Shown piece by piece: positions 18,635 through 48,881 of a stretch of DNA of 64,000 bases. Under the pieces are notes generated by a model that saw nothing but the letters and a program-made list of their open reading frames with translations, searched no databases and was not told where the DNA came from. This DNA comes from Phenylobacterium montanum (lineage in GTDB: Bacteria; Pseudomonadota; Alphaproteobacteria; Caulobacterales; Caulobacteraceae). The position numbers were made by a program, and so were the translations under genes. The stretch is from contig NZ_CP073078.1 in assembly GCF_018135625.1 (NCBI RefSeq), positions 4,248,501 through 4,312,500 of the forward strand, given 5' to 3'. How positions within the stretch are numbered: the stretch's first letter is position 1; each line of letters opens with the position of its first letter.

Positions 18635-18788
18635 TCGGTCCCTTCCGCGTGCAGGACAAAAGCTCTGCGCGCCTCCAATTGGCGATGCTGTCGCCGCCGC
18701 GCAAGCGCGTTGCCCTGGCTCGGCGGCGTTTCTATGGCGCCCCGACTCGGCGCATGGGGAAATTAGATCAGACGGCGGGATCACGCGA

Positions 18789-32431: not shown

Positions 32432-32432
32432 C

Positions 32433-32921
32433 ATGCTGGTCGCCGATCCCGCCGCCAAGATCTCACCCCTGGCCGACATCGAGCCCTCGGTGCGCGGCTC
32501 CAGGGTGGTGGTGGCGGCCGGGGCGGTGATCGACGCCTTCGTAAAGGTCAAGCCGGCCGGCGGCGCGGGCGACGTCACCATCGGACCGGGCAGCGTGATC
32601 AATTCCGGCTGCGTGCTCTATACCGGCAACGGCATCGCCATCGGGGCCGACGTGCTGATCGCCGCCAACTGCACCCTGGCCCCTACCAATCACGAGTTCC
32701 GCGACCCCGGCCGGCCGATTCGCACCCAGGGGTTCATGGAGAGCCGGGGCGGCATCGTCATCGAGGATGACGTCTGGATCGGGGCCAACAGCGTGATCCT
32801 GGACGGGGCGATCATCCGCAAGGGCTCGATCATCGCCGCCGGCTCGGTGGTGCGCGACGAGCGGCCGGCCTATTCGATCAGCGCCGGGGCGCCGGCCAAG
32901 ACCATCGGCTGGCGCAAGTGA
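32433..32921 (+). CDS. Left-handed beta-helix (hexapeptide-repeat) acyltransferase
   Basis: The ATG one base after the epimerase stop gives 162 residues. Hexapeptide repeats run through the protein (VTIGPGSVINSGCVLYTGNGIAIGADV). LAPTNHEFRDPGRPIRTQG contains the His expected at the active site, and the WIGANSVILDGAIIRKGSIIAAGSVV block is typical of WbbJ/maltose-O-acetyltransferase-like enzymes. It probably acetylates the sugar or glycan made by this cluster. Donor and site of acylation are not visible. Confidence 0.88.
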   Translation: MLVADPAAKISPLADIEPSVRGSRVVVAAGAVIDAFVKVKPAGGAGDVTIGPGSVINSGCVLYTGNGIAIGADVLIAANCTLAPTNHEFRDPGRPIRTQGFMESRGGIVIEDDVWIGANSVILDGAIIRKGSIIAAGSVVRDERPAYSISAGAPAKTIGWRK

Positions 32922-33742
32922 GGGCGACCGTCTTCGGCGCCCAGGGCTTCGTCGGTCGGCATCTGACGCAACACCTGCGCCGCGAGGGCTGGGAGGTTGT
33001 CGCGCTCGGCCGGGGTGACGCTCCGCCGGCGGACGGATCGCTGGGCCACGTCTTCTATTGCATCGGCCTGACCGCGGACTTCCGCAGCCGCCCGTTCGAG
33101 ACCATCGAGGCCCATGTCAGCCTCGCCGCCGAGCTGCTGCGCGAAGGCCGCTTCGACAGCTTCCTCTATTGCTCCTCGACCCGGGTCTATGCCGGCGCCG
33201 CGGAGGCGACCGAGACGGCGCGGATCGAGGTCGATCCCGGCGACCCCAGCGACCTCTACAATCTCTCCAAGTTGATGGGGGAGGCGGCCTGCCTGGCCGT
33301 AAGCCGGCCCGAGGCGCGCATCGCCCGGCTGTCCAACGTGTTCGGCGCCGACGACGCGTCGGAGAATTTCCTGACCTCGATCCTGACTGACGCGGTTAGG
33401 GATGCGCGGGTGGTGCTGCAGTCGTCGCCGGACAGCGCCAAGGACTATGTGGCGGTGGAGGACGTGGCTACAGCCCTGGCACGCATCGCCGTCCAGGGCC
33501 GCGAGCGGATCTACAATGTCGCGGCCGGGCGCAACACAAGCCACGCCGCCCTGCTGGCCGCGATTCGGGCGGCCACGGGATGCGAGGTCGCCGTCGCGCA
33601 TGACAAAAGGCCGCAGGTGTTCCCGTTAATCGCCACCGAGCGGCTGCAAGCTCTGGGCGATTGGCGCCCTGTCCCGGTCGAGGCGTGCATCCCGGCCCTT
33701 GTCGAAGGCGCGCGCCGCCGGCTAAGCCTTGCCAGGCAATGA
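32918..33742 (+). CDS. NAD-dependent epimerase/dehydratase family protein, probable 4-keto-sugar reductase
   Basis: GTG 32918 overlaps the acyltransferase stop (GTGA). The 274-residue SDR protein has TVFGAQGFVGRHL near the start, LYCSSTRVYAG, and the YNLSKLMGEAACL motif with Tyr and Lys. Its small size suits NDP-keto-sugar reductases. As the last gene of the sugar cluster it would complete the deoxysugar by reducing the 4-keto group. An epimerase role is the alternative. Confidence 0.85.
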   Translation: MRATVFGAQGFVGRHLTQHLRREGWEVVALGRGDAPPADGSLGHVFYCIGLTADFRSRPFETIEAHVSLAAELLREGRFDSFLYCSSTRVYAGAAEATETARIEVDPGDPSDLYNLSKLMGEAACLAVSRPEARIARLSNVFGADDASENFLTSILTDAVRDARVVLQSSPDSAKDYVAVEDVATALARIAVQGRERIYNVAAGRNTSHAALLAAIRAATGCEVAVAHDKRPQVFPLIATERLQALGDWRPVPVEACIPALVEGARRRLSLARQ

Positions 33743-33970: not shown

Positions 33971-36900
33971 ATGGCGATCGACATTACGCTTGGCAACAAT
34001 GGCAACAACGTCACCCTCAGTGACGTCGACAGCCTGCTTGGCGGCACCGGCAACGACATTGTCACCTTCACCGGCGGCCTGACCAACGCCGTGATCGACC
34101 TGGGCGCGGGCGAGGACAAGATCGTCCTCGCCAATGCGACCAACACCGTGACGGTGTCGAACGTCGAGAGCATCGTCGGCGGTACCGGCGCGGACACCAT
34201 CACCCTGGGCGCGGCGGCCTCCAACGCCTCGATCGACCTGGGCGTGGGCTCCGACACCCTGACCCTCGGCAACTTCGCCAACACCGCCACGGTCTCCAAT
34301 GTCGAGACCCTGACCGGCGGCACGGGCGCGGACACCATCACCCTGGGCGCAGCCCTGACCACCGCCATGTCGCTGGACCTGGGCGCTGGCGCCGATAAGC
34401 TGATCCTGGCCGCTGGCGGCAACACCGGCACCATCTCCAATGTCGAGACTGTCGTCGGCGGTTCGGGCGCCGACGCCGTGACTCTCGGCACGGTCGCTTC
34501 CAACGCCTCGGTGGACCTGGGAGCCGGCAGCGACACCCTGACCCTGGCCAACGGCGCCAACACCGCGACGGTCTCCAACGTCGAGACCCTGACCGGCGGC
34601 ACCGGCGCCGACACCATCACCCTGGGCGCGGCGGCCTCCAATGCGTCTATCGATCTGGGCGTCGGCGGCGACGCCCTGACCCTGGGCAATTTCGCCAACA
34701 CCGCCACCATCGCCAATACTGAGACCATCACCGGCGGGACCGGCAACGACACGGTGACCCTGGCGGGCGCCTTGACGACGTCCATGTCGGTGGACCTGGG
34801 CGCGGGCTCTGACAAGCTGACCCTGGCCAATGTGGCCAACACCGGCACGGTGTCGAACGTCGAGACCCTGGCCGGCGGCACGGGCGCGGACACGGTCACC
34901 TACGCCACGGCCCTGTCCAACGGCTCGGTGGACCTGGGCGCGGGTTCGGACACCCTGACCCTGGCCAACGCGGCCAACACCGCCACGGTCTCCAATGTCG
35001 AGACCCTGACCGGCGGCACGGGCGCGGACACCATCACCCTGGGTTCGGCCCTGACCACCGCCATGTCGCTGGACCTGGGCGCGGGCAATGACAAGCTGAC
35101 CCTGGCCAACGGGACCAACACCGGCACGGTCTCGGGCGTCGAGACCCTGGTCGGCGGCACCGGGGCGGACACCATCACCCTGGCTACCGCCGCCGCCTTT
35201 ACCGGTTCGGTGGACCTTGGGGCCGGCAATGACAGCCTGACCCTGGGTAACTTCCCCAACACCGTCACGGTCTCCAACGTCGAGACCCTGCTGGGTGGGA
35301 CGGGCGCGGACACCATCACCCTGGGCGCGGCGGCCTCCAACGCCTCGATCGACCTGGGCGTGGGCTCCGACACCCTGACCCTCGGCAACTTCGCCAACAC
35401 CGCGACGGTCTCCAATGTCGAGACCCTGACCGGCGGGACCGGCAACGACACCGTCACCCTCGGCACGGCCCTGACCACCGCCATGTCGGTGAACCTGGGC
35501 GCGGGCGAGGACAAGCTGACCCTGGCCAATGCGGCCAACACCGGCACGGTGTCGGGCGTCGAGACCCTGGCCGGCGGCACGGGCGCGGACGCCATCACCC
35601 TCGGCGCGGCGGTCTCCAACGCCTCGATCGACCTGGGCGCGGGCTCCGACACCCTGACCCTGGCCAACGGCGCCAACACCGCCACGGTCTCCAATGTCGA
35701 GACCCTGACCGGCGGCACGGGCGCGGACACCATCACCTTGGGCACGGCCCTGACCAACGCCATGGCGGTGGACCTGGGCGCGGGCGCTGACAAGCTGACC
35801 CTGGCCAATGTCGCCAACACCGGCACGGTCTCCAACGTCGAGACCATCGTCGGCGGCACGGCGGCGGACGCGGTCACCCTGGGCACGGCCGTCACCGGCG
35901 GGTCGTTCGACCTCGGCGCCGGCGCCGACAGCCTGACCTTCGCCAACGGGACCAACACCGCCACCGTCTCCAACGTCGAGACCGTCACCGGCGGCACCGG
36001 CGCCGACACCATCACCCTCGGCGCCGCCGCGGTGAACGCCTCCATCGACCTCGGCGTCGGCGCCGACGTCCTGACCCTCGGCGGGTTCACCAACACCGCC
36101 ACGGTGTCGAACGTCGAGACCCTGACCGGCGGATCGGGCGCCGACACCATCACCCTGGGCACGGCGCTCACCACCGGCATGTCGGTGGACCTGGGCGCGG
36201 GCTCTGACAAGCTGACCCTGGCCAATGTGGCCAACACCGGCACGGTGTCGAACGTCGAGACCCTGGCCGGCGGCACGGGCGCGGACACGGTCACCTACGC
36301 CACGGCCCTGTCCAACGGCTCGGTGGACCTGGGCGCGGGTTCGGACACCCTGACCCTGGCCAACGCGGCCAACACCGCCACGGTCTCCAATGTCGAGACC
36401 CTGACCGGCGGCACGGGCGCGGACACCATCACCCTGGGTTCGGCCCTGACCACCGCCATGTCGCTGGACCTGGGCGCGGGCAATGACAAGCTGACCCTGG
36501 CCAACGGGACCAACACCGGCACGGTCTCGGGCGTCGAGACCCTGGTCGGCGGCACCGGGGCGGACACCATCACCCTGGCTACCGCCGCCGCCTTTACCGG
36601 TTCGGTGGACCTTGGGGCCGGCAATGACAGCCTGACCCTGGGTAACTTCCCCAACACCGTCACGGTCTCCAACGTCGAGACCCTGCTGGGTGGGACGGGC
36701 GCGGACACCATCACCCTGGGCGCGGCGGCCTCCAACGCCTCGATCGACCTGGGCGTGGGCTCCGACACCCTGACCCTCGGCAACTTCGCCAACACCGCGA
36801 CGGTCTCCAATGTCGAGACCCTGACCGGCGGGACCGGCAACGACACCGTCACCCTCGGCACGGCCCTGACCACCGCCATGTCGGTGAACCTGGGCGCGGG

Positions 36901-39900
36901 CGAGGACAAGCTGACCCTGGCCAATGCGGCCAACACCGGCACGGTGTCGGGCGTCGAGACCCTGGCCGGCGGCACGGGCGCGGACGCCATCACCCTCGGC
37001 GCGGCGGTCTCCAACGCCTCGATCGACCTGGGCGCGGGCTCCGACACCCTGACCCTGGCCAACGGCGCCAACACCGCCACGGTCTCCAATGTCGAGACCC
37101 TGACCGGCGGCACGGGCGCGGACACCATCACCTTGGGCACGGCCCTGACCAACGCCATGGCGGTGGACCTGGGCGCGGGCGCTGACAAGCTGACCCTGGC
37201 CAATGTCGCCAACACCGGCACGGTCTCCAACGTCGAGACCATCGTCGGCGGCACGGCGGCGGACGCGGTCACCCTGGGCACGGCCGTCACCGGCGGGTCG
37301 TTCGACCTCGGCGCCGGCGCCGACAGCCTGACCTTCGCCAACGGGACCAACACCGCCACCGTCTCCAACGTCGAGACCGTCACCGGCGGCACCGGCGCCG
37401 ACACCATCACCCTCGGCGCCGCCGCGGTGAACGCCTCCATCGACCTCGGCGTCGGCGCCGACGTCCTGACCCTCGGCGGGTTCACCAACACCGCCACGGT
37501 GTCGAACGTCGAGACCCTGACCGGCGGATCGGGCGCCGACACCATCACCCTGGGCACGGCGCTCACCACCGGCATGTCGGTGGACCTGGGCGCGGGCTCT
37601 GACAAGCTGACCCTGGCCAATGTGGCCAACACCGGCACGGTGTCGAACGTCGAGACCCTGGCCGGCGGCACGGGCGCGGACACGGTCACCTACGCCACGG
37701 CCCTGTCCAACGGCTCGGTGGACCTGGGCGCGGGTTCGGACACCCTGACCCTGGCCAACGCGGCCAACACCGCCACGGTCTCCAATGTCGAGACCCTGAC
37801 CGGCGGCACGGGCGCGGACACCATCACCCTGGGTTCGGCCCTGACCACCGCCATGTCGCTGGACCTGGGCGCGGGCAATGACAAGCTGACCCTGGCCAAC
37901 GGGACCAACACCGGCACGGTCTCGGGCGTCGAGACCCTGGTCGGCGGCACCGGGGCGGACACCATCACCCTGGCTACCGCCGCCGCCTTTACCGGTTCGG
38001 TGGACCTTGGGGCCGGCAATGACAGCCTGACCCTGGGTAACTTCCCCAACACCGTCACGGTCTCCAACGTCGAGACCCTGCTGGGTGGGACGGGCGCGGA
38101 CACCATCACCCTGGGCGCGGCGGCCTCCAACGCCTCGATCGACCTGGGCGTGGGCTCCGACACCCTGACCCTCGGCAACTTCGCCAACACCGCGACGGTC
38201 TCCAATGTCGAGACCCTGACCGGCGGGACCGGCAACGACACCGTCACCCTCGGCACGGCCCTGACCACCGCCATGTCGGTGAACCTGGGCGCGGGCGAGG
38301 ACAAGCTGACCCTGGCCAATGCGGCCAACACCGGCACGGTGTCGGGCGTCGAGACCCTGGCCGGCGGCACGGGCGCGGACGCCATCACCCTCGGCGCGGC
38401 GGTCTCCAACGCCTCGATCGACCTGGGCGCGGGCTCCGACACCCTGACCCTGGCCAACGGCGCCAACACCGCCACGGTCTCCAATGTCGAGACCCTGACC
38501 GGCGGCACGGGCGCGGACACCATCACCTTGGGCACGGCCCTGACCAACGCCATGGCGGTGGACCTGGGCGCGGGCGCTGACAAGCTGACCCTGGCCAATG
38601 TCGCCAACACCGGCACGGTCTCCAACGTCGAGACCATCGTCGGCGGCACGGCGGCGGACGCGGTCACCCTGGGCACGGCCGTCACCGGCGGGTCGTTCGA
38701 CCTCGGCGCCGGCGCCGACAGCCTGACCTTCGCCAACGGGACCAACACCGCCACCGTCTCCAACGTCGAGACCGTCACCGGCGGCACCGGCGCCGACACC
38801 ATCACCCTCGGCGCCGCCGCGGTGAACGCCTCCATCGACCTCGGCGTCGGCGCCGACGTCCTGACCCTCGGCGGGTTCACCAACACCGCCACGGTCAACA
38901 ACGTCGAGACCATCGTTGGCGGCTCGGGTTCGGACACCATCACCCTGGCCAACGCCTTGACCACCGGGATGTCGATCGATCTCGGGGCCGGGATCAACAA
39001 GCTGACCCTGGCCAACGTGGCCAACACCGGCACGGTCAGCAACGTGACCAGCCTGGTCGGCGGCTCGGGCGTGGACACCATCACGCTCGGAAGCGCGATC
39101 TCCAACGGCTCCATCGACCTCGCCGCCGGCAACGACGTCCTGACCTTCGGCAACTTCGCCAACACGGCGACGGTGGCCAATGTGGAGACCATCACCGGCG
39201 GCACGGGCAATGACTCGATCACCCTGGGCTCGGTCCTGACCACCGGCCTGTCGATCGACCTCGGGGCCGGCGCCGACAAGCTGACCCTGGGCGCCTTCAC
39301 CAACACCGGTACGCTGTCCAATGTCGAGAGCGTGATCGGCGGCACCGGGGCGGACACCATCACCCTGGCGACGGCGGTGACGAACGGCTCCTTCGACCTG
39401 GGCCTAGGTAACGACACCCTGACCCTGGCCAACGGGACCAACTCGGCCACGGTCTCCAACGTCGAGACCCTGCTGGGCGGGACGGGCGCCGACACCATCA
39501 CCCTGGGCGCGGCGACCTCGAACGCCTCCATCGACCTGGGCGTGGGCAACGACAGCCTGACCCTCGGCAATTTCGCCAACACCCTGACGGTCAACAACGT
39601 CGAGACCCTGACCGGCGGCACGGGCAACGACACGGTCACCCTGGGCAACGCCCTGACCACCTCGATGGCCATCGACCTGGGCGCGGGCGAGGACAAGCTG
39701 GTGCTCGGCAACTTCGCCAACACCGGCACGGTCAGTCACGTCGAGACCCTGATCGGCGGCTCGGCCAACGACACCATCACCTTCGGCTCGGGCGTCACCG
39801 GCGGCTCGATCGACCTGGGGGCCGGCACGAACGTGCTGAACTTCGGGGCCTTCAACAACACGGCCACGGTGTCGAACGTCGAGACCATCAACGCCGGGGC

Positions 39901-40498
39901 GGGCAACGACACCATTACGCTCGGATCGTCCATGGTGGGCGGCCAGGTCAACTTCACCGCCGGCGGCTCGGACAGCCTGATCCTGGCGGCGGGGACCAAC
40001 CACGTCAGCGTGGCCAACGCCCAGACCATCCTGGGCGGGACCGGCAACGACACCATCACGGTGAGCGGGACCGGGCCGGTGGACATCGCCGCCGGTGGCG
40101 GGGTGAACCAGGTCTATGGCCACAGCGCCGCCGACGTGTTCGTGTTCGACCAGGACAGCTCGAACAACTTCACCACGGTGATGAACTTCGACCAGGCGCA
40201 CGGCAACAAGATCGGCCTGGACACCTCCGGGGTCTGGACCGGCCACGCCCCGACCTACTCGATCTCCGGCGGCCTGGTGAACGGGACCAACATCACCTCG
40301 GTGGCCAACGCCACGGCCCTGCACGCCACCACCCTGGCGACCGGTGGCCACGGCGGCTTCGTCTACGAGCAGGACACCGGCGAGCTGTTCTACAGCGCCA
40401 ACGGCGCCTTCTCGACCGGCGGCACCCTGATCGGGGTGATCACCACCGACGGGTCGACGCCCTGGACCTACAACTTCGGCAGCTTCCAGACCGTCTAA
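33971..40498 (+). CDS. Giant RTX-like repeat protein, probable type I secretion substrate (S-layer/adhesin-like)
   Basis: The 2175-residue protein has no signal peptide and no cysteine. From about residue 15 to 2040 it is built of some 44 repeats of about 46 residues. Each holds an RTX-like turn GGTGADTIT and a second acidic turn DLGAGSDTLTL separated by SNAS/SNGS/TTAMS linkers, then NTATVSNVETL. Ten such repeats form a 465-residue unit present almost three times. The last 120 or so residues differ: ADVFVFDQDSSNNFTTVMNF, and the only Trp residues lie there, as expected for a T1SS C-terminal signal domain. Calcium-dependent beta-solenoid folding outside the cell is inferred. The T1SS and sugar genes lie upstream and the GT41 gene downstream. 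Confidence 0.9.
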   Translation: MAIDITLGNNGNNVTLSDVDSLLGGTGNDIVTFTGGLTNAVIDLGAGEDKIVLANATNTVTVSNVESIVGGTGADTITLGAAASNASIDLGVGSDTLTLGNFANTATVSNVETLTGGTGADTITLGAALTTAMSLDLGAGADKLILAAGGNTGTISNVETVVGGSGADAVTLGTVASNASVDLGAGSDTLTLANGANTATVSNVETLTGGTGADTITLGAAASNASIDLGVGGDALTLGNFANTATIANTETITGGTGNDTVTLAGALTTSMSVDLGAGSDKLTLANVANTGTVSNVETLAGGTGADTVTYATALSNGSVDLGAGSDTLTLANAANTATVSNVETLTGGTGADTITLGSALTTAMSLDLGAGNDKLTLANGTNTGTVSGVETLVGGTGADTITLATAAAFTGSVDLGAGNDSLTLGNFPNTVTVSNVETLLGGTGADTITLGAAASNASIDLGVGSDTLTLGNFANTATVSNVETLTGGTGNDTVTLGTALTTAMSVNLGAGEDKLTLANAANTGTVSGVETLAGGTGADAITLGAAVSNASIDLGAGSDTLTLANGANTATVSNVETLTGGTGADTITLGTALTNAMAVDLGAGADKLTLANVANTGTVSNVETIVGGTAADAVTLGTAVTGGSFDLGAGADSLTFANGTNTATVSNVETVTGGTGADTITLGAAAVNASIDLGVGADVLTLGGFTNTATVSNVETLTGGSGADTITLGTALTTGMSVDLGAGSDKLTLANVANTGTVSNVETLAGGTGADTVTYATALSNGSVDLGAGSDTLTLANAANTATVSNVETLTGGTGADTITLGSALTTAMSLDLGAGNDKLTLANGTNTGTVSGVETLVGGTGADTITLATAAAFTGSVDLGAGNDSLTLGNFPNTVTVSNVETLLGGTGADTITLGAAASNASIDLGVGSDTLTLGNFANTATVSNVETLTGGTGNDTVTLGTALTTAMSVNLGAGEDKLTLANAANTGTVSGVETLAGGTGADAITLGAAVSNASIDLGAGSDTLTLANGANTATVSNVETLTGGTGADTITLGTALTNAMAVDLGAGADKLTLANVANTGTVSNVETIVGGTAADAVTLGTAVTGGSFDLGAGADSLTFANGTNTATVSNVETVTGGTGADTITLGAAAVNASIDLGVGADVLTLGGFTNTATVSNVETLTGGSGADTITLGTALTTGMSVDLGAGSDKLTLANVANTGTVSNVETLAGGTGADTVTYATALSNGSVDLGAGSDTLTLANAANTATVSNVETLTGGTGADTITLGSALTTAMSLDLGAGNDKLTLANGTNTGTVSGVETLVGGTGADTITLATAAAFTGSVDLGAGNDSLTLGNFPNTVTVSNVETLLGGTGADTITLGAAASNASIDLGVGSDTLTLGNFANTATVSNVETLTGGTGNDTVTLGTALTTAMSVNLGAGEDKLTLANAANTGTVSGVETLAGGTGADAITLGAAVSNASIDLGAGSDTLTLANGANTATVSNVETLTGGTGADTITLGTALTNAMAVDLGAGADKLTLANVANTGTVSNVETIVGGTAADAVTLGTAVTGGSFDLGAGADSLTFANGTNTATVSNVETVTGGTGADTITLGAAAVNASIDLGVGADVLTLGGFTNTATVNNVETIVGGSGSDTITLANALTTGMSIDLGAGINKLTLANVANTGTVSNVTSLVGGSGVDTITLGSAISNGSIDLAAGNDVLTFGNFANTATVANVETITGGTGNDSITLGSVLTTGLSIDLGAGADKLTLGAFTNTGTLSNVESVIGGTGADTITLATAVTNGSFDLGLGNDTLTLANGTNSATVSNVETLLGGTGADTITLGAATSNASIDLGVGNDSLTLGNFANTLTVNNVETLTGGTGNDTVTLGNALTTSMAIDLGAGEDKLVLGNFANTGTVSHVETLIGGSANDTITFGSGVTGGSIDLGAGTNVLNFGAFNNTATVSNVETINAGAGNDTITLGSSMVGGQVNFTAGGSDSLILAAGTNHVSVANAQTILGGTGNDTITVSGTGPVDIAAGGGVNQVYGHSAADVFVFDQDSSNNFTTVMNFDQAHGNKIGLDTSGVWTGHAPTYSISGGLVNGTNITSVANATALHATTLATGGHGGFVYEQDTGELFYSANGAFSTGGTLIGVITTDGSTPWTYNFGSFQTV
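34783..38895 (+). repeat. 1395-bp tandem repeat, 2.95 copies, within the giant gene
   Basis: The sequence beginning CATGTCGGTGGACCTGGGCG at 34783 recurs at 36178 and 37573, each 1395 bases on, and identity ends at 38895. I found no difference between copies where compared, including synonymous positions. The period is exactly 465 codons (ten 46/47-residue protein repeats), so the frame is kept. Older, diverged repeats flank the block on both sides. Confidence 0.95.
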
Positions 40499-40539: not shown

Positions 40540-40630
40540 CCATTTCGTCGCAGCGGCGCCATGGTTAATGGGCCGGTAACCGAAATCGGGGGTATTGAAG
40601 CCTGTCAGGCTGCAAGGACCCGCCCTTTCC

Positions 40631-41392
40631 ATGATTACGATCGATGAAGCTCGCGGCCAGGTTACGGTCGAGGGGCCGAACGGGACTGTGACCCACCCCC
40701 TGGCCTCGCCCGAGGCGTTCAAGATCGTCTCCGACGCCTGGATCCGCTGCGGCTGGGACACCAAGTACGTCTACAGCTTTTCCTGGATGGGCCGGCCGAT
40801 CATCCAGCTGCCGGACGACATGGTCCGCATCCAGGAGGTGATCTACGCCATCAAGCCGGACGTGATCATCGAGACCGGCGTCGCCCACGGCGGCTCGCTG
40901 ATCTTCTACGCCAGCCTGTGCAAGGCCATGGGCAAGGGCCGCATCGTCGGCATCGACATCGAGATCCGCCCGCACAACCGCAAGGCCATCGAGGCGCACG
41001 AGATGTCGTCCCTGATCACCCTGATCGAGGGCAGCTCGGTGGACGCCGCCACCGTCGAACAGGTCGCCGCCCAGGTGAAGCCGGGCGAGACCACCCTGGT
41101 GCTGCTCGATTCCAACCACACCAAGGCCCACGTCCTGGCCGAGCTCGAGGCCTATGGCCCGATGGTGACCAAGGGCTCCTACATCGTCGCCACCGACGGG
41201 ATCATGGCCCAGGTCGTGGGCGCCCCGCGCTCGGCCCCTGATTGGGCCTGGAACAACCCGATCGGCGCGGTCGAGGCCTTCCTGCCCGCCCATCCGGAGT
41301 TCGTGCTGGAGGAGCCGGCTTTCCCGTTCAACGAGGGGGTGGTGCAGGATCGCGTCACCTACTGGCCCAGCGCCTATCTGAAGCGGATCTGA
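40631..41392 (+). CDS. CmcI (cephalosporin hydroxylase) family protein, probable SAM-dependent methyltransferase
   Basis: The ATG at 40631 gives 253 residues. Family marks are VIIETGVAHGGSLIFYASLCK, GRIVGIDIEIRPHNRKAIE, and TTLVLLDSNHTKAHVLAELE. These correspond to the SAM-binding and metal-binding parts of the CmcI/rhamnosyl-O-methyltransferase family (PF04989 type). Many members sit in polysaccharide loci and O-methylate sugars. Its position between the repeat protein and the multi-GT41 protein, four bases ahead of the latter, suggests methylation of the attached glycan. This is an inference. Confidence 0.85.
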   Translation: MITIDEARGQVTVEGPNGTVTHPLASPEAFKIVSDAWIRCGWDTKYVYSFSWMGRPIIQLPDDMVRIQEVIYAIKPDVIIETGVAHGGSLIFYASLCKAMGKGRIVGIDIEIRPHNRKAIEAHEMSSLITLIEGSSVDAATVEQVAAQVKPGETTLVLLDSNHTKAHVLAELEAYGPMVTKGSYIVATDGIMAQVVGAPRSAPDWAWNNPIGAVEAFLPAHPEFVLEEPAFPFNEGVVQDRVTYWPSAYLKRI

Positions 41393-41396
41393 CCCG

Positions 41397-44300
41397 TTGA
41401 GCCGGGGCGATCGCGTGACCGCCGCCAGCCGACCGACCGTGCAGGACGCCCTGGCGGCCCTGCAGGGCGGCGATCTCGATCGCGCCCGCGCCCTGGCGCT
41501 GGCCGTGACCGAGCAGGCGCCCGATGACGCCTTCGCCCACGAGTTGCTCAGCCTCGCCTGCTACCAGCTGGGCGACGCCGCCGGCGGCCTGCCCGCGGCC
41601 GAGCGGGCGGTGATGCTGCAGGCCAGCGCCGGCCGCTTCGCCAACCTCGGCGTGCTGCTGAGGGCGGTCGGCCGCGACCATGACGCCGAGATGGCCTATC
41701 GCCACGCGATCGAGCTCGACCCTGGCTTCGTCGCCGCCCACCACAATCTCGGCAACCTCTTGTTCGACCGCGGCGACATGGCCTCGGCCGAGATCGCCCT
41801 GCGCCAGGCGCTGAACCACAACGCCGACCACGCCGAGGCCTGGCGCAGCCTGGGCCTGGTGCTGCAGCGGACCGGCCGGCTGGAGGAGGCGGTCAGCGCC
41901 TTCCAACAGCTGCTGGCGCGCATCCCCGGCCACGCCCGTGGGCTGAACGACCTCGGCTGCTGCCTGATGGCGCTGGAACGCTATGACGAGGGCCTGGCCG
42001 CCTTTCAGGAAGCCAACGTCCGACATCCGAACTACGCGGACACCTACGGCAACCTCGGCGCCCTGCTGCTCCGCGCCGGCTGCCCGTTCAACGCCATGCT
42101 CGCCAGCGAGCGGGCCCTGGAGCTCGATCCCGGCCAGCATCGCTGGATGAGCAACCTGGCCACGGCGCTGAAGGATCTCGGCGACTTCGACCGGGCCGAG
42201 GCCCTGTTCCGCCAGGCCCTGGCGGCGCAGCCTGACTATGTGGTCGGCCACGGCAACCTGTTGTTCTGCCTGAACTATCATCCGGACAAGCCGGCCGAGG
42301 AGATCGTCGCCGAGTACCATCGCTGGGATGAGGCGCACGCCAAGCCGCTGCTGCCCCAGCCGCTGCGCTTCGACAATGACCGCAACCCTGAGCGCCGCCT
42401 GCGTGTGGGCCTGGTCTCGCCGGACTTCCGCGAGCACTCGGCCCGCCACTTCATCCTGCCCATGCTGCAGGGCCTGGACCGCGAGCGGCTTGAGATCGTC
42501 TGCTACGCCGAGGTCGCACGGCCCGACGAAACCACCCGACAGTTCATGGCCCTGGCCGACCATTGGCGCTCGACCGTCGGCCTGACCGACGAGGACCTGG
42601 CCGAGCTGATCCGCAGCGACCAGACCGACATTCTGATCGACCTCGGCGGACACTCGGCCTCCAGCCGGCTGATGGTGTTCGCGCGCAAGCCGGCCCCGGT
42701 GCAGGTGGCCCACATGCTGGGCTGCGGCTACACCTCTGGCATGTCGGCCATGGACGCCTTCCTGGCCGACGAGGCACTGGCGCCGGAAGGCGCCGAGACC
42801 CTGTTCGTCGAGCCGTTGCTGCGGCTGGATCGAATCCCGATCGCCTATAGCCCGCCCGAGGATATGCCGGCGGTGGGCCCGACCCCGGCTCTGGCCCGGG
42901 GCCACATCACCTTCGGCTATTTCGGCCGGCCCGAGCGGATCAACGACAAGGTGCTGGCCGCCTGGAGCGCGATCCTGAACGGGGTTCCAGGCTCGCGCCT
43001 GGTGCTGAACTCCAAGGCCTTCCAGGAAGAGACCTTCCGCACCCTCTATCTGCAGCGCTTCGCCGCCTTCGGCGTCGCGCCCGAGCGGCTGGACCTGGTG
43101 TTCACCACGCCTCAGCCGAAGACCTGGTCGGCCTATGGCGAGATCGACATTGCGCTCGATCCCTTCCCGCACAACGCCGGCACCACGACCATCGAGGCCC
43201 TGTGGCTGGGCGTGCCGGTGCTGTCGATCAAGGACCGGCCCTCGGTCGGCCGTTTCGGCGCCTCGATCCTGGGCGCGGTCGGGCTGAGCGACTGGGTCGC
43301 CGACGACGCGGCCGGCTATGTGGCCAAGGGGATCGCCGCAGCTTTGGACGTTCCGGGCCTGCAAGCCTTGCGCGAAGGCATGCGCGAGCGGTTCCTGGCA
43401 TCGCCCCTGGCCGATGGCGCGGGCCTTGGCCGGTCGCTGAGCGAGGCCCTGCGCGGGCTCTGGCGCGACTGGTGCGCCAATGACCAGGCGCAGAACTGGG
43501 CCGAGGCCGAGCGCCTGACCCGCCTCTCCGACCAGTTCCGCCTGCAGGGGCGCATGGCCGAGGCCGAGGCCGCCGCCCGCCAGGCCATGGCCCTCGATCC
43601 CACCCACGCCGGCGCGGCCATGCACCTGGGCAACGCCCTGGCCGGCCAGTCACGCCTGGCCGAGGCCGAGGCCGCCTTCGGCCGGGCCCTGGCGCTAAAG
43701 CCTGACCTCGCCGAGGCGCACAACAATCGTGGCCTCTCATACATGCGCCGCGGCCAGGTCACCGCAGCGGAGCACGACCTCAGGCGAGCGATGGAACTTC
43801 GCCCGGACAAGCCGGAGATCGGCTTCAACCTCGCCGTCGTGCTGCAGGACCAGGGGCGGCTGGAAGAGGCCATGGCGGTCTATCAGACGGCGATCGAGGC
43901 GCGGCCCGACATCTCCCAGGGCCACGGCGCCTTCCTGTTCTGCATCAACTACCAGCCGCAGGTTTCGGCCGAGGAAGCCTTCGCCGAGTTCCAGCGCTGG
44001 AACCGCCGCCACGCCCTGCCGCACCTGCCGGACAAGCCGGCCCACGCCAACGACCCGGACCCCGACCGGCGCTTAAGGATCGGCTATGTCTCGCCCGACT
44101 TCGCCGCCAAGTCCGGCCGCCACTTCATCGAGCCCATGCTTGCCGGCCATGACCGCCGCGCGGTCGAGGTGTTCGCCTATGCCGAGGTCGCCCACCCGGA
44201 CGCGGTGACCGCCTATTTCAAGACCCTGGCCGACCACTGGCGCCCGACCGTGGGCCTGAGCGACGACGAACTGGCGGCGCTGATCCGCCATGACCGCATC

Positions 44301-47300
44301 GACGTCCTGATCGACCTCGGCGGCCACACGGCCAAGAACCGCCTGCTGGCCCTGGCGCGCAAGCCGGCGCCGGTGCAGATCGCCCACTTCCTGGGGCACG
44401 GCTACACCTCGGGCATGACGGCCATGGACGCCTTCCTGGCCGACGAGCGCCTGGCGCCTGCGGGCAGCGAGGGCCTGTTCGCCGAGCGGGTGGTGCGCCT
44501 GCCCCGCATTCCCATCGCCTACCAGGCCCCGCCCGAACTGCCGCCGGTCGCGCCCCTGCCGGCCCTGGCCAAGGGCCATGTCACCTTTGGCCACTTCGGC
44601 CGCACCGTGCGCATCAACGAGCGGGTGATCGAGGCTTGGGCGCGGATCCTGAACGGCGTCCCCGGCTCGCGCCTGATGCTGAACACTGGCCCGTTCGGCG
44701 ACGAGGGGGTGCGCGAGCGCTATCGCCAGCGCTTCGCCGCTCATGGGATCGATCCCGAGCGGCTGGACCTGGTCTACACCACACCGCAGCCTAACACCTG
44801 GGCCGCCTATGGCGCGGTCGACATCGCCCTCGACCCGTTCCCGCATAACGCCGGCACCACCACCATCGAGGCCCTGTGGCTGGGCGTGCCGGTGGTGACC
44901 ATGGCCGACCGGCCCTCGGTGGGGCGCTTCGGCCTCAGCATCCTGCACGCGGCCGAACTGGACGACTGGGTCGCGGAAGACATCGACGCCTATGTCGCCC
45001 GAGCCATCGCCGCGGCGGGCGACCTGCCAGCCCTGGCCGAGCTGCGCGCGGGCCTGAGGATGCGCATGCAGGCCTCGCCGCTGGGCGATGGGCCGGGCCT
45101 GGCGCACAATCTGGAGCGGGTCTATCGCGGCCTGTGGCGCGAATGGTGCGCCGAGCATGGCCTGGACCACGGGGCGCTGACCGCTAAGGCGGCCGGCCTG
45201 TTCCAGGCCGGCGACGCGGCCGGGGCGGCGGCGATCTTCGACAAGCTGGCGCGGGGGCTGGGCGACGCCGGCAGCTGGTCCAACCTCGGGGTGGCGCTGA
45301 AGGCGCTGGGCCGCACCGGCGAGGCTGAAGCCGCCTTCCGAGAGGCCCTGTCGCGCGATGCGGCCCTGGCCAGCGCCCATGGCAACCTGGCCAACCTCTT
45401 GACCGGTCGCGGCCTGCACGCCGAGGCGCTGGAGCGCTACCGCTCGGCGCTGGATATCGAGCCGGAAGCCGCCGAGACCTGGCGCGCCTACGCAGTCTGT
45501 CTCCTGGCCTCGGGCGATATCGACGCCGCCCAGGAGGCGGCCCGGCGCGCCCTGGCGCTCGATCCCAGCCGGCCCGCCGTTCACGAGACCCTGGCCTCGG
45601 CCCTGCGCGCCGGCGGCCAGCCGGTGGCGGCGGTGCGCGAATACGCCTTGGCCGTGGCCGGCGCGCCCGACGACGCTCGCACCCTCTGCAACATGGCCAT
45701 CGCCGTGCAGGACCTGGGCCGCTTCGACGAGGCCGAGACCCTGTTCCGTCGCGGGCTGGCGGCGCGGCCGGACTACGCCGTAGGCCATTCCAACCTGTTG
45801 TTCTGCCTGAACTATCACCCGGATCGTTCGGCCGAGGCGGTGTTCGCCGAATACCAGCGCTGGGACGCCCGCCACGCGCGGCCGCTGGCCTCCGCCCATC
45901 CGGTGTTCGCCAACGCCAAGGACCCTGAGCGGCGGCTGAGGCTGGGCATCGTCTCGCCGGATTTCCGTGGCCACTCGGCCCGCCACTATATCGAGCCGAT
46001 CCTGGCCGGCCTCGACCGTCATGAGCTGGAGGTGTTCTGCTACGCCGAGGTGGCGCAGCCGGACGAGGCGACCGAGCGCTTCAAGGCCATGGCCGACCAC
46101 TGGCGCTCCAGCGTCGGCCTGTCGGACGCCGCTCTGGCCGAGCAGATCCGCGCCGACCGGATCGACATCCTGATGGACCTCGGCGGCCACACCGCCGCCA
46201 GCCGCCTGCGGGTCTTCGCCCGCAAGCCGGCGCCGATCCAGGTCGAGCATATGCTGGGCCATGGCTACAGCTCTGGCCTCTCGGCCATGGACGCCTTCCT
46301 GGCCGACGACCTGCTGGCGCCGCCGGGGGCGGAGGTGGTGTTCTCGGAAAAGCTGGTGCGTCTGCCGCGCATTCCGCTGGCCTATGTGGCGCCGGAGGGG
46401 ATGCCCGAGCCCGGCCCGACCCCGGCCCTGGCCAAGGGCTATGTCACCTTCGGCTATTTTGGCCGGCCGGAGCGGATCAACGATAAGGTGATCGCCGCCT
46501 GGAGCCGAATCCTTCTGGGCGTTCCGGGTTCGCGGCTGATGCTGAACACCCGCGCCTTCGAGGAGGCCGAGTGCCGCCAGCTCTACCAGGCCCGCTTCGC
46601 CGCCCACGGCGTCGGGCCCGAGCAGCTGGAGCTGGTGTTCACCTCGCCCCAGCCCAGGACCTGGGCGGCCTATGGCGAGGTCGACATCGCCCTCGACCCG
46701 TTCCCGCACAATGCCGGGGCCACCACCATCGAGGCCCTGTGGCTGGGCGCGCCGGTGCTGTCGCTGAAGGACCGGCCCTCGGTCGGCCGCTTCGGCGCTT
46801 CGATCCTGGGCGCCATGGGCCTGGACGACTGGGTGGCCGATGACGCGGACGCCTATGTCGCCAAGGCGGTGGCGGCGGCCGGCGACCTGGACGCCCTGCA
46901 GGCCCTGCGCGCCGGAATGCGCGCGCGGTTCCTGGCCTCGCCCCTGGCCGACGCCGAGGGCCTGGGGCGAGCGCTGGGCAAGGCCTTCCGCGGGCTCTGG
47001 CGCGCCTGGTGCGGCGCCTCAGAAGCCGACCTGGTGCGCGAGGCCATAGCCGCCTTCGGTCGTGGCGATCACGCGGGCGCTGTGGTGCTGGCCGAGCGGG
47101 TCCTGGCCATCGATCCCGACCACTTCGACGCCCTCCAGCTGCGCGGTGCGGCGGCGTTCCGGCAAGGACGGCTGGCCGAGGCCGAAGCGGACCTGCGCGC
47201 GGCCATGCAGCTCGATCCCAGCCGGCCCGAGCCGGCCTGGAACCTGATTGCGGTGCTGCGCGCCCGGGGCGAACTCGAGGGGGCGGAGGCGGTCGGCCTC

Positions 47301-48881
47301 TCCGCCATCGAGGCCTCGCCCGAGGCGCCCGAACCGCACAACAACCTGGGCTCGGTCTATCTGGACCGCAACGAGGCCAGCCGAGCCGAGGCATGTTTCC
47401 GCATCGCCATCCAGCACCGGCCGGGCATGGCCGACGCCTGGACCAACCTCGCCTGGACCCTCAACCGACTGGGCCGCGCCGCCGAGGCGGAGGCCGCCGC
47501 GCGGCAGTCGCTGGCGCTGAACCCGAATGACGCCAACAGCTACAACAACCTCGCCACGGCCCTGATGCACCAGGACCGTCTGGTCGAGGCCGGCGACGCA
47601 TTCCAGACCGCCCTGACCAAGCGCCCCGGCTTCGTCATGGCGCACTCGAACCTGCTCTTCTGCCTGAATTATCACCCCAGCCTGCCGGCCGAGGCGATCT
47701 TCGCCGAGTACCGCCGCTGGAACGAGGTCCACGCCGCACCCCTGGCGCCGTCCGAGCCACCGGCGTTCGCGTTCGGTGATCCGGGTCGGCGGCTGCGCAT
47801 CGGCTATGTCTCGCCCGACTTCCGCCACCATGCGGTCAGCTTCTTTATCGAGCCGCTGCTGGCGGCCCACGACAAGAGCCAGGTCGAGGTGTTCTGCTAC
47901 GCCGAGGTGGCCAATCCCGACGCGGTGACCGAGCGCTTCAAGGCCCATGCCGACCACTGGCGCTCGACTGTGGGGCTGAGCGACGCCGAGGTCGCCGACC
48001 TGGTCCGCCAGGACGGGATCGATGTGCTGGTCGATCTGGCCGGCCATACCGCGCACAATCGCCTGCTGGCCTTCGCCCGGCGCGCCGCGCCGGTGCAGCT
48101 GGCGCACATGGTGGGCTCGGGCTGCACCAGCGGCCTGACCGAGATGGACGGCTTCCTGGCCGACGAGGCCCTGGCGCCGGTGGGGGCGCAGGTGCTGTTC
48201 AGCGAGCCCCTGATCCGCCTGCCGCGCATCCCGCTGGTCTATGCCCCGCCCGAGGGCATGCCGCAGGTTTCGCCCCTGCCTGCGCTGAAGAAGGGCCATG
48301 TGACCTTCGGCTGCTTCAGCCGCACGGCGCGAATGAACGACGACGTGCTCGACCTCTGGACCGAGATCCTGAAGCAGGTCCCGGGCTCGCGCCTGATGCT
48401 GAACGCCAAGCCGTTCCAGGAAGAGGCGACGCGCGAGGCCTTCGAACGCCGGTTTGAGGCGCGGGGTATCGAGGCCGAGCGGCTGGACCTGGTGTTCACC
48501 TCGCCCCAACCGAACACCTGGGCGGCCTATGGCGCGGTCGACATCGCCCTGGATCCCTTCCCGCACAACGCCGGCACCACGACCATCGAAGCCCTGTGGC
48601 TGGGCGTGCCCGTGATCTCCCTCGCCGACCGGCCACCGATGGGGCGCTTCGGCAAGTCGATCCTGGGGGCGGTGGGACTGGACGACTGGGCCGTCGACAC
48701 GCCGCAGGACTATGTGGCCAAGGCGGTCGCTGCGGCGGGCGACCTGAAGGCGCTGAAAGCCCTGCGCGCGGGCCTGCGCCAACGCGTGGAGGCCTCGCCC
48801 CTGCGCGACGCCGAAGGCCTGGCGCGGGCGATGGAGGCGGCCTATCGGTCAGCCTGGTTGGCCAGGGCAGGGCGGCCTTAA
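41397..48881 (+). CDS. Four-module TPR + GT41 (O-GlcNAc transferase/SPINDLY-like) glycosyltransferase
   Basis: The 2494-residue protein repeats one design four times: a block of TPRs, then a GT41 catalytic region. Catalytic regions start near residues 333 (RRLRVGLVSPDFREHSARHF), 890 (RRLRIGYVSPDFAAKSGRHF), 1512 (RRLRLGIVSPDFRGHSARHY) and 2131 (RRLRIGYVSPDFRHHAVSFF). Each holds DILIDLGGH-like, TTPQP/TSPQP, and DPFPHNAGTTTIEALWLG motifs. No signal peptide is present, so it acts in the cytoplasm. GT41 enzymes glycosylate Ser/Thr or, as HMW1C, Asn of proteins; single-catalytic-domain members are about 600-1100 residues. The start is TTG 41397 or, perhaps better, GTG 41415. The giant repeat protein next door is the obvious candidate substrate. 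Confidence 0.93.
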   Translation: MSRGDRVTAASRPTVQDALAALQGGDLDRARALALAVTEQAPDDAFAHELLSLACYQLGDAAGGLPAAERAVMLQASAGRFANLGVLLRAVGRDHDAEMAYRHAIELDPGFVAAHHNLGNLLFDRGDMASAEIALRQALNHNADHAEAWRSLGLVLQRTGRLEEAVSAFQQLLARIPGHARGLNDLGCCLMALERYDEGLAAFQEANVRHPNYADTYGNLGALLLRAGCPFNAMLASERALELDPGQHRWMSNLATALKDLGDFDRAEALFRQALAAQPDYVVGHGNLLFCLNYHPDKPAEEIVAEYHRWDEAHAKPLLPQPLRFDNDRNPERRLRVGLVSPDFREHSARHFILPMLQGLDRERLEIVCYAEVARPDETTRQFMALADHWRSTVGLTDEDLAELIRSDQTDILIDLGGHSASSRLMVFARKPAPVQVAHMLGCGYTSGMSAMDAFLADEALAPEGAETLFVEPLLRLDRIPIAYSPPEDMPAVGPTPALARGHITFGYFGRPERINDKVLAAWSAILNGVPGSRLVLNSKAFQEETFRTLYLQRFAAFGVAPERLDLVFTTPQPKTWSAYGEIDIALDPFPHNAGTTTIEALWLGVPVLSIKDRPSVGRFGASILGAVGLSDWVADDAAGYVAKGIAAALDVPGLQALREGMRERFLASPLADGAGLGRSLSEALRGLWRDWCANDQAQNWAEAERLTRLSDQFRLQGRMAEAEAAARQAMALDPTHAGAAMHLGNALAGQSRLAEAEAAFGRALALKPDLAEAHNNRGLSYMRRGQVTAAEHDLRRAMELRPDKPEIGFNLAVVLQDQGRLEEAMAVYQTAIEARPDISQGHGAFLFCINYQPQVSAEEAFAEFQRWNRRHALPHLPDKPAHANDPDPDRRLRIGYVSPDFAAKSGRHFIEPMLAGHDRRAVEVFAYAEVAHPDAVTAYFKTLADHWRPTVGLSDDELAALIRHDRIDVLIDLGGHTAKNRLLALARKPAPVQIAHFLGHGYTSGMTAMDAFLADERLAPAGSEGLFAERVVRLPRIPIAYQAPPELPPVAPLPALAKGHVTFGHFGRTVRINERVIEAWARILNGVPGSRLMLNTGPFGDEGVRERYRQRFAAHGIDPERLDLVYTTPQPNTWAAYGAVDIALDPFPHNAGTTTIEALWLGVPVVTMADRPSVGRFGLSILHAAELDDWVAEDIDAYVARAIAAAGDLPALAELRAGLRMRMQASPLGDGPGLAHNLERVYRGLWREWCAEHGLDHGALTAKAAGLFQAGDAAGAAAIFDKLARGLGDAGSWSNLGVALKALGRTGEAEAAFREALSRDAALASAHGNLANLLTGRGLHAEALERYRSALDIEPEAAETWRAYAVCLLASGDIDAAQEAARRALALDPSRPAVHETLASALRAGGQPVAAVREYALAVAGAPDDARTLCNMAIAVQDLGRFDEAETLFRRGLAARPDYAVGHSNLLFCLNYHPDRSAEAVFAEYQRWDARHARPLASAHPVFANAKDPERRLRLGIVSPDFRGHSARHYIEPILAGLDRHELEVFCYAEVAQPDEATERFKAMADHWRSSVGLSDAALAEQIRADRIDILMDLGGHTAASRLRVFARKPAPIQVEHMLGHGYSSGLSAMDAFLADDLLAPPGAEVVFSEKLVRLPRIPLAYVAPEGMPEPGPTPALAKGYVTFGYFGRPERINDKVIAAWSRILLGVPGSRLMLNTRAFEEAECRQLYQARFAAHGVGPEQLELVFTSPQPRTWAAYGEVDIALDPFPHNAGATTIEALWLGAPVLSLKDRPSVGRFGASILGAMGLDDWVADDADAYVAKAVAAAGDLDALQALRAGMRARFLASPLADAEGLGRALGKAFRGLWRAWCGASEADLVREAIAAFGRGDHAGAVVLAERVLAIDPDHFDALQLRGAAAFRQGRLAEAEADLRAAMQLDPSRPEPAWNLIAVLRARGELEGAEAVGLSAIEASPEAPEPHNNLGSVYLDRNEASRAEACFRIAIQHRPGMADAWTNLAWTLNRLGRAAEAEAAARQSLALNPNDANSYNNLATALMHQDRLVEAGDAFQTALTKRPGFVMAHSNLLFCLNYHPSLPAEAIFAEYRRWNEVHAAPLAPSEPPAFAFGDPGRRLRIGYVSPDFRHHAVSFFIEPLLAAHDKSQVEVFCYAEVANPDAVTERFKAHADHWRSTVGLSDAEVADLVRQDGIDVLVDLAGHTAHNRLLAFARRAAPVQLAHMVGSGCTSGLTEMDGFLADEALAPVGAQVLFSEPLIRLPRIPLVYAPPEGMPQVSPLPALKKGHVTFGCFSRTARMNDDVLDLWTEILKQVPGSRLMLNAKPFQEEATREAFERRFEARGIEAERLDLVFTSPQPNTWAAYGAVDIALDPFPHNAGTTTIEALWLGVPVISLADRPPMGRFGKSILGAVGLDDWAVDTPQDYVAKAVAAAGDLKALKALRAGLRQRVEASPLRDAEGLARAMEAAYRSAWLARAGRP

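Follow-up and report, generated by a model that had tools for sequence, protein, structure and literature searches.

A 64,000-nt stretch of the Phenylobacterium montanum genome (assembly GCF_018135625.1, contig NZ_CP073078.1, positions 4,248,501–4,312,500 of the forward strand), referred to here as the window, contains a single stop-free reading frame at 41397–48881 that encodes a protein of 2494 amino acids (aa). In this protein, a tetratricopeptide repeat (TPR) array followed by a catalytic region of glycosyltransferase family 41 (GT41) occurs four times. The genome (5.65 Mb in two contigs, 99.32% complete) holds one additional GT41 gene, a single-module one of 644 aa. The four-module gene lies downstream of genes for a type I secretion system (T1SS), a CDP-sugar pathway, and a giant repeat protein (Table 1).

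The four-module GT41 protein

PF13844 (Glyco_transf_41) matches the frame in eight stretches, corresponding to four catalytic domains that are each split in two (E = 2.1e-140; score 469 bits, curated cut-off 25), and TPR families are placed between them. The catalytic domains (residues 280–688, 838–1246, 1459–1867, and 2078–2486) are each full length with 409 residues and can be aligned without gaps, and the TPR segments preceding them comprise about 284, 149, 212, and 210 residues, respectively. The G+C content at the three codon positions (0.75/0.49/0.91) is coding-like. An AlphaFold2 model was examined for module 2 with 150 preceding residues and has a predicted local distance difference test score (pLDDT) of 92.8. 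For this module, the model has the GT41 architecture of a TPR superhelix joined to a GT-B catalytic fold, and its closest solved fold is that of SPINDLY (SPY; PDB 7y4i; Z 53.0, root mean square deviation 1.8, 542 aligned residues, 33% identity). An earlier sequence-only reading of this stretch, which had described four whole TPR-GT41 units in one frame, is thus borne out. It had also named modules 1 and 3 as the most alike, and these two are indeed the top pair: the catalytic domains of modules 2, 3, and 4 are 63%, 72%, and 61% identical to that of module 1, and both module 1 and module 3 carry FGYFGRPERINDKV.

Such a frame could in principle stem from an assembly collapse or a frameshift. A scan of one genome per species yielded 30 related loci. 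Four modules in a single frame were found in two Hyphomicrobium genomes (L024, 2562 aa; L025, 2556 aa), in both cases free of unknown bases, as is the window, which rules out an assembly artefact. Chance, or an assembly error peculiar to the window, is very unlikely to be the origin of the four modules. In Hyphomicrobium zavarzinii (L023), modules 1, 2, and 4 are readable, and unknown bases fall inside module 3, which is thus simply unread and not frameshifted. In one Caulobacteraceae metagenome-assembled genome (MAG; L022), the contig breaks off after two modules, and a second (G053) has pieces on three contigs that group with modules 1/3, 2, 1/3, and 4.

Conservation and history of the modules

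A maximum-likelihood tree places the second module of the window with the second modules of other species (support 100/98) and the fourth with their fourth modules (99/95); modules 1 and 3 form one group (97/93). The tree left out 12 near-identical or duplicate rows and three module fragments shorter than 280 model positions, and long-branch warnings for SPY, L049, and L050 were not interpreted. All three groups have members from both Caulobacteraceae and Hyphomicrobium, which belong to two orders, and the duplication is therefore old. When the four modules are called A, B, A', and C, H. zavarzinii and the two Caulobacteraceae MAGs fit the same order. Judged by the tree, the A-B-A'-C order is common to both lineages, either through descent or because the entire gene was transferred.

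Modules 1 and 3 cluster by lineage, not by position, so that from the tree alone A' can be read as an old copy kept similar or as a parallel duplication. The catalytic DNA of the two modules is 99.7% identical in L024 and 99.3% in L025, with identical tracts of 1116 bp and 1139 bp, respectively; the corresponding TPR segments, by contrast, are only 40% and 44% alike. Because of this discrepancy, the two genes look like products of gene conversion, which would equalize the chemistry of the A heads while the recognition arrays differ. The A-domain pair is 91% alike in G053, where the domains are partial. The earlier suggestion that modules 1 and 3 arose by duplication therefore needs revision: their kinship stands, but the duplication is old and there are signs of gene conversion in two Hyphomicrobium genomes. 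The TPR segments of the four heads within one protein are 30–44% alike, and the positional orthologues of the second and fourth segments (T2 and T4) between the two orders are 47–53% alike.

The ratio of nonsynonymous to synonymous substitution rates (dN/dS) was estimated with a simple Nei–Gojobori count, which is rough on high-GC genes. It was 0.05–0.32 in eight between-species comparisons of modules 1, 2, and 4 of the four-module chains and 0.12–0.15 in three pairs of the three-module clade described below; within-genome pairs were not taken as evidence of selection. By these ratios, the catalytic domains are under purifying selection.

A separate Hyphomicrobium clade (G491, G584, G586, and G568) has three-module proteins on its own branch (support 100/99), and the multiplication of heads therefore probably happened more than once. 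G586 and G584 have three modules, the contig of the latter starting inside the repeat gene, G568 has two full modules and one cut by the contig end, and G491 has three modules in one gene with two single-module genes behind it (3+1+1). In a class sample of 385 genomes, 92 of which gave a match, at least five (the window genome, G491, G568, G460, and G381) have frames with two or more of the listed modules; this count is a lower bound because only four candidates per genome were scored. One of them, G460 (L071), is an independent multi-head case, a TPR-GT41-TPR-GT41-FkbM methyltransferase fusion of 2146 aa of the Lys type defined below. It sits between T1SS ABC/HlyD genes and another giant protein without a Pfam match, which makes a third arrangement. 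Separately, a deltaproteobacterial MAG (L029, 6902–13642) encodes a three-module GT41 protein of 2246 aa with nearly identical outer modules and CDP-sugar genes downstream.

Catalytic positions and the donor pocket

In SPY, His495 corresponds to His558 of human OGT, and the H495A, H495F, and K665 mutants are described as dead (PMC9715652). At the His495 position, modules 1, 3, and 4 keep His wherever they could be read, including all three in the window, and module 2 has Lys or Arg in 6 of 6 readable species, with Lys in the window. Gln occupies this position in 11 single-module relatives of the Arg type (defined in the next paragraph), and loss of the His therefore need not mean loss of activity. 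Module 2 has been maintained, because its dN/dS is 0.11–0.27 in three comparisons and its confident model matches SPY. It may be a binding head or a head with altered chemistry, and it is a candidate specialized head.

At the position of SPY Lys665, which we take to be the counterpart of Lys842 in human OGT, all four window modules carry Arg, so that the essential phosphate-binding Lys of OGT- and SPY-type enzymes is not found in them. Arg is present in 67 of the 70 module rows from the related loci, or 65 of 68 distinct rows, since 2 of the 70 represent the same module from overlapping stretches. We refer to such modules as Arg-type; because the Arg defines the type, uniformity at this position is no finding. 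For comparison, we examined a class-wide sample of 80 GT41 loci (the 40 top matches of two lists each, hand-chosen, with a genome entered once per list and many of the stretches cut by contig ends), in which Lys is present in 115 of 119 modules and Arg in the other 4. The positions of Asn661, His728, and Tyr744, which are GDP-contact or sugar-pocket positions, change together with the Arg. In the 65 distinct Arg-type modules, Asn661 is kept in none (S, G, T, or A in all), 59 have T, S, or P at the His728 position and 2 keep His there, and the Tyr744 position is His in 64. The 115 Lys-type modules retain Asn661 in 99 cases and His728 in 80. Two Arg-type proteins, L027 and L028, start near a Cys-rich motif that we take to resemble SEC-C, and the frames after L028 resemble, by eye, the transporter and the adaptor of a T1SS.

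The gene cluster and the repeat protein

From upstream to downstream, the cluster contains genes for a PrtD-type ATP-binding cassette (ABC) transporter, an HlyD adaptor, a cytidylyltransferase-like protein, a CDP-glucose 4,6-dehydratase, a sugar 3-C-methyltransferase (CMT), an RmlC-type epimerase, a hexapeptide protein, a reductase-like protein, the repeat protein, a CmcI/RMNT-type methyltransferase (OMT), and the four-module GT41 protein (Table 1). The OMT gene stops 4 bases before the GT41 frame. Both T1SS components score above their cut-offs, and no TolC-type outer-membrane channel was seen among the cluster genes scanned, a genome-wide search not having been made. For a CDP-3-C-methyl-6-deoxyhexose pathway, the dehydratase and the 3-C-methyltransferase were both identified. 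The annotated cluster genes include no nonulosonate gene; the genome was not searched for NeuB. A 2OG-Fe(II) oxygenase-like gene at 18008–19399 of the window is unrelated to the cluster as far as seen.

Table 1. Positions of the cluster genes and of the GT41 modules within the window
Feature	Position	Strand	Evidence
T1SS ABC transporter, PrtD type	25741..27453	+	TIGR01842, 635.1 bits, cut-off 510.15
T1SS periplasmic adaptor HlyD	27450..28796	+	TIGR01843, 321.8 bits, cut-off 208.65
Glucose-1-phosphate cytidylyltransferase-like (RfbF)	28777..29589	+	TIGR02623, 295.5 bits, just under cut-off 300.25
CDP-glucose 4,6-dehydratase (RfbG)	29597..30643	+	TIGR02622, 449.6 bits, cut-off 278.45; best PDB 1rkx, E 7.1e-112
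Sugar 3-C-methyltransferase (CMT)	30636..31883	+	Best PDB 4rv9, D-mycarose 3-C-methyltransferase, E 2.6e-87; then 5t64 (sugar 3-C-methyl transferase), TcaB9
RmlC-type sugar 3,5-epimerase	31832..32431	+	TIGR01221, 168.5 bits, cut-off 155.75
Hexapeptide acyltransferase-like protein	32292..32921	+	Start set mechanically
Epimerase/RmlD-like NAD(P) sugar reductase	32918..33742	+	Below RmlD cut-off
RTX-like repeat protein, 2175 aa (proposed acceptor)	33971..40498	+	Pfam, repeat and composition analysis
CmcI/RMNT-type methyltransferase (OMT)	40595..41392	+	PF04989, 242.5 bits, cut-off 23.2; start set mechanically
Four-module TPR-GT41 protein, 2494 aa	41397..48881	+	Open reading frame and Pfam; start TTG set mechanically
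Module 1 TPR segment (longest)	41397..42233	+	Pfam, segment comparison
Module 1 catalytic domain, type A; Arg at SPY K665 position, His at H495 position	42234..43460	+	Alignment, tree
Module 2 TPR segment (shortest)	43461..43907	+	Segment comparison
Module 2 catalytic domain, type B; Lys at SPY H495 position	43908..45134	+	Alignment, AlphaFold2 model
Module 3 TPR segment	45135..45770	+	Segment comparison
Module 3 catalytic domain, type A'	45771..46997	+	Alignment, tree
Module 4 TPR segment	46998..47627	+	Segment comparison
Module 4 catalytic domain, type C	47628..48854	+	Alignment, tree

The repeat protein, encoded two genes upstream of the GT41 gene, is built of units of about 46 aa, contains 25.6% Ser and Thr, and lacks Arg and Cys. 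HemolysinCabind (PF00353), an RTX calcium-binding family, matches it with 58.3 bits against a cut-off of 23, no single stretch passing alone. At 34783–38895, the gene has an exact DNA run of 2718 bp at an offset of 1395 bp, which amounts to near-threefold identical long copies; by this identity, the tandem copies are the result of recent amplification. By raw count, the protein has 48 N-X-S/T motifs in its 2175 aa; HMW1C-like N-glucosyltransferases act on such motifs with UDP-Glc as the donor. A defence reading of the locus was dropped, there being no PADLOC match for the repeat protein.

The cluster is conserved beyond the window. Three Hyphomicrobium genomes (G595, G596, and G597) hold the ABC, HlyD, RfbF, RfbG, CMT, RmlC, reductase, repeat protein, OMT, and four-module GT41 genes, with module 3 of G595 partly unread and the first block in opposite orientation to the second. 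In the Caulobacteraceae genomes G044 and G053, the cluster is present in contig pieces, in which HlyD and the sugar genes run into the start of the repeat protein and the OMT runs into module 1. The trio of repeat protein, OMT, and multi-module GT41 thus recurs in Hyphomicrobium and another Caulobacteraceae MAG, and in pieces in a second one. In the three-module Hyphomicrobium clade, ABC, HlyD, and repeat-protein genes stand directly before the multi-module GT41 gene with no OMT between them. In G491, G568, and G584, a cluster elsewhere in the genome (L156, L157, and L158) holds CDP-sugar and O-methyltransferase genes, with no CMT among the genes picked.

Of 199 Caulobacteraceae genomes, the same 3 had the closest modules (E < 1e-180) and the C-terminus of the repeat protein (E < 1e-20), one of 1,293,699 possible sets of three by a hand calculation; the thresholds were chosen after the lists had been seen, and the 3 genomes belong to one genus. 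Matches of the C-terminus in two more genomes (E = 2.0e-4 and 3.5e-4) were left out as near chance. The same query is uninformative in the Hyphomicrobium family, where it came back empty even where the repeat protein exists, and at E < 1e-15 over the class it matched the window genome only, which is too strict to use.

Arg-type GT41 genes are present in 29 of the 30 related loci, and 20 of these 29 have both RfbF and RfbG in the fetched stretch, accompanied by RmlC in all 20, CMT in 19, and a CmcI-type OMT in 17. None of the 76 Lys-only loci of the class sample has RfbF and RfbG, and one has a CMT-like gene. CDP-activated C-methyl deoxysugars include vinelose, a name that no paper found in our literature search carried. 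In G332 and G514 (L161 and L162), CDP-sugar genes lie with O-methyltransferase and T1SS genes, and a frame of L161 looks RTX-like by eye.

Discussion

Starting from the observed genes, their order and conservation, the selection on them, the changes in the donor pocket, and the fold, we consider it reasonably probable that the window protein is a cytoplasmic four-headed GT41 O-glycosyltransferase, which decorates the neighboring repeat protein before export with a CDP-activated C-methylated 6-deoxyhexose. In the proposed mechanism, the cluster would make CDP-6-deoxy-4-ketoglucose, to be followed by C3 methylation, epimerization, and reduction. In the cytoplasm, the TPR arrays of the four heads would bind the repeat polypeptide, rich in Ser/Thr, before it has folded, and heads A, A', and C, perhaps also B, would transfer the sugar onto Ser/Thr residues of many repeats. 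The CmcI-type enzyme would O-methylate the sugar before or after transfer, and the PrtD/HlyD system would export the glycoprotein. Gene neighborhood and co-occurrence point to the repeat protein as the acceptor, and gene neighborhood together with the altered pocket points to the CDP-sugar as the donor. The heads are putative transferases by sequence; the linkage, the export route, and processive action are suggested by analogy with known systems. Overall, the analysis suggests a dedicated assembly line that sugar-coats a probably secreted repeat protein before its export.

A wider statement, for which we see the balance as even, is that the Arg-type branch of GT41 uses CDP-activated C-methylated 6-deoxyhexoses, not UDP- or GDP-sugars, and that two alphaproteobacterial orders have turned it into a multi-headed line of fixed A-B-A'-C order, with B a specialized head lacking the active-site His, that coats a giant T1SS repeat protein before export. 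The simplest story would be that the enzyme and its sugar pathway serve flagellin in some Betaproteobacteria and, with a multiplied head, a giant secreted repeat protein in these Alphaproteobacteria. Flagellin, near which some of the related single-module Arg-type genes lie, is known as an acceptor that is glycosylated ahead of its export (PMC7591256).

Several observations weigh against the assembly-line reading. SPY Lys665 is replaced in every head and His495 in module 2, and activity therefore cannot be assumed. The RfbF match falls slightly short of its NCBIfam cut-off. The loci that link the pocket to the sugar genes are not independent: 12 of the 20 with RfbF and RfbG are from Undibacterium and 3 more from other Oxalobacteraceae. 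Nine of the 29 Arg-type loci lack the gene pair in the stretch; two are on short contigs with the pair on other contigs of the same genomes (L022 and L026), three have it beyond the flank (L023–L025), one has RfbF only on a short contig (L036), and three have no pair in reach (L027, L028, and L049). The four Arg-type loci of the class sample also lack it, although two of them (in G332 and G514) are on 3-kb contigs and the CDP cluster lies beside T1SS genes on another contig. Conversely, a Lys-type double GT41 (L072) adjoins RfbF- and CMT-like genes. All 6 Hyphomicrobium genomes that were examined and have no close GT41 modules contain CDP-glucose dehydratase; its presence in a genome was therefore rejected as a cluster marker, and only proximity, not presence, supports the donor claim. 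In the three-module clade, the CDP genes are not next to the GT41 gene (they lie elsewhere in G491, G568, and G584), and G586 has no TIGR02622 match. On the acceptor side, the Caulobacteraceae genomes G013 and G018 have modules at E < 1e-120 without a repeat-protein match. Four heads pair with repeat proteins of 2175 aa in the window and 5990 aa in Hyphomicrobium strain LHD-15, so that scaling of module number with repeat number, which we considered, was not seen. The sequence-only reading had proposed that a multi-headed enzyme suits a substrate made of repeats and would allow processive or multi-specific modification; the pairing itself agrees with the repeat gene two genes upstream, the recurring trio, and the shared 3 of 199 genomes, but head number does not follow repeat number. 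The CDP-sugar pathway, the T1SS genes, the changed donor pocket, and the unusual module 2 are additions to that reading.

The best-surviving alternative, which we rate as unlikely but worth weighing, keeps the same acceptor and takes the four heads as ordinary copies of one specificity, whose fusion only lifts the local enzyme concentration (gene dosage), with Arg for Lys being a conservative change without a donor switch. It would account for the catalytic DNA of modules 1 and 3 being kept equal in L024 and L025, and for the 3+1+1 split of the heads in G491, given which fusion is not essential. It is at odds with the maintenance of modules 2 and 4 as separate clades across two orders, with the Lys or Arg that module 2 alone in the chain has at the His position, with TPR segments that are less alike within a protein than T2 and T4 are between orders, and with the joint shift of several donor-pocket positions.

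A second alternative, which we regard as improbable, is that the GT41 protein acts on another acceptor, such as flagellin or a surface polysaccharide, and that the repeat protein is its neighbor by chance or through shared regulation. Single-module Arg-type genes do lie near a flagellin-like frame, recognized by motif, in 10 of the 30 related loci (two were checked and confirmed by Pfam), and the single-module Arg-type GT41 of the window genome itself (L064, 9639–11552) has neighbors that look, by eye, like polysaccharide export genes. The motif was found neither in the fetched stretches of the four-module loci nor in the loci scanned outside these 30, in a scan that is insensitive. Furthermore, at most one gene separates the repeat-protein and GT41 genes in two Hyphomicrobium clades and in Caulobacteraceae, and both occur in the same 3 of 199 genomes. 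A third alternative, in which catalysis has been lost in some or all of the heads and the protein serves chiefly as a TPR chaperone to hold the repeat protein unfolded for type I export, would explain the loss of the essential Lys in all heads and of the His in module 2, but is more improbable still, because the Arg also occurs in single-module enzymes beside near-complete sugar pathways and looks like a functional alternative, 11 such enzymes have Gln at the His position, which can thus vary, and the catalytic domains are under purifying selection.

Seen as a four-headed glycosyltransferase with a repetitive acceptor, the window protein has parallels among known systems. SPY, a GT41 protein O-fucosyltransferase, likewise combines a TPR array with a GT41 catalytic region and glycosylates intracellular proteins (PMC9715652), but it has one head and uses GDP-fucose, and where SPY has Lys665, Asn661, and His728 for GDP, the window modules have Arg, Gly/Ser, and Thr. 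The OGT of Thermobaculum terrenum (5djs) and XcOGT of Xanthomonas (2jlb) are bacterial TPR-GT41 relatives in sequence and fold, with a single head in the solved chains. FlmG of Caulobacter crescentus, to which we liken the protein by architecture and not by sequence, binds its acceptor through a TPR N-terminus, has a GT-B-like C-terminus, and acts on proteins in the cytoplasm before their export; it differs in being a single unit of 596 residues that is pseudaminic acid-dependent and has flagellins as acceptors (PMC7591256). By this analogy, an FlmG-like mode of action is probable for the window protein. HMW1C-like glucosyltransferases pair a GT41-class enzyme with the large secreted adhesin HMW1 (PMC3012730). 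They differ in having a single head in the solved chains, N-linked hexoses, and two-partner secretion, and the module 2 model matches an HMW1C-like fold (3q3e) with Z 32.7 and 13–15% identity in structural alignments. In Enterobacteriaceae flagellin glycosylation islands, eleven GT41 types are described, with flagellin as the acceptor and GlcNAc derivatives suggested, a wider specificity being allowed; island type 23 (4 strains) holds CDP-4-keto-6-deoxyglucose genes, its GT41 content being left unstated, and the main text never uses the word "tandem" (PMC4875605).

GT41, T1SS repeat proteins, and CDP-sugar pathways are each already known. Among the papers listed from open-licence literature, judged by titles and abstract openings, there was no report on a tandem multi-head GT41, on CDP-sugar use by GT41, or on GT41 glycosylation of a type I-secreted repeat protein. 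Among these papers, we thus did not meet the four-headed chain whose head order is conserved, the association of the Arg-type pocket with CDP-sugar genes, or the link to a T1SS neighbor.

In the OGT-like enzymes with solved structures, a single TPR array accompanies a single catalytic region. Four distinct, ordered heads tied to one giant repetitive neighbor and to a sugar pathway of their own offer a natural test of how TPR arrays choose an acceptor, and of whether several active sites on one chain cooperate. The Arg and the accompanying pocket changes make a new donor specificity of GT41 testable, which would suggest a donor for the related flagellin loci as well. Bacterial surface layers or adhesins may also be built by a route that has been overlooked, in which glycosylation precedes type I export.

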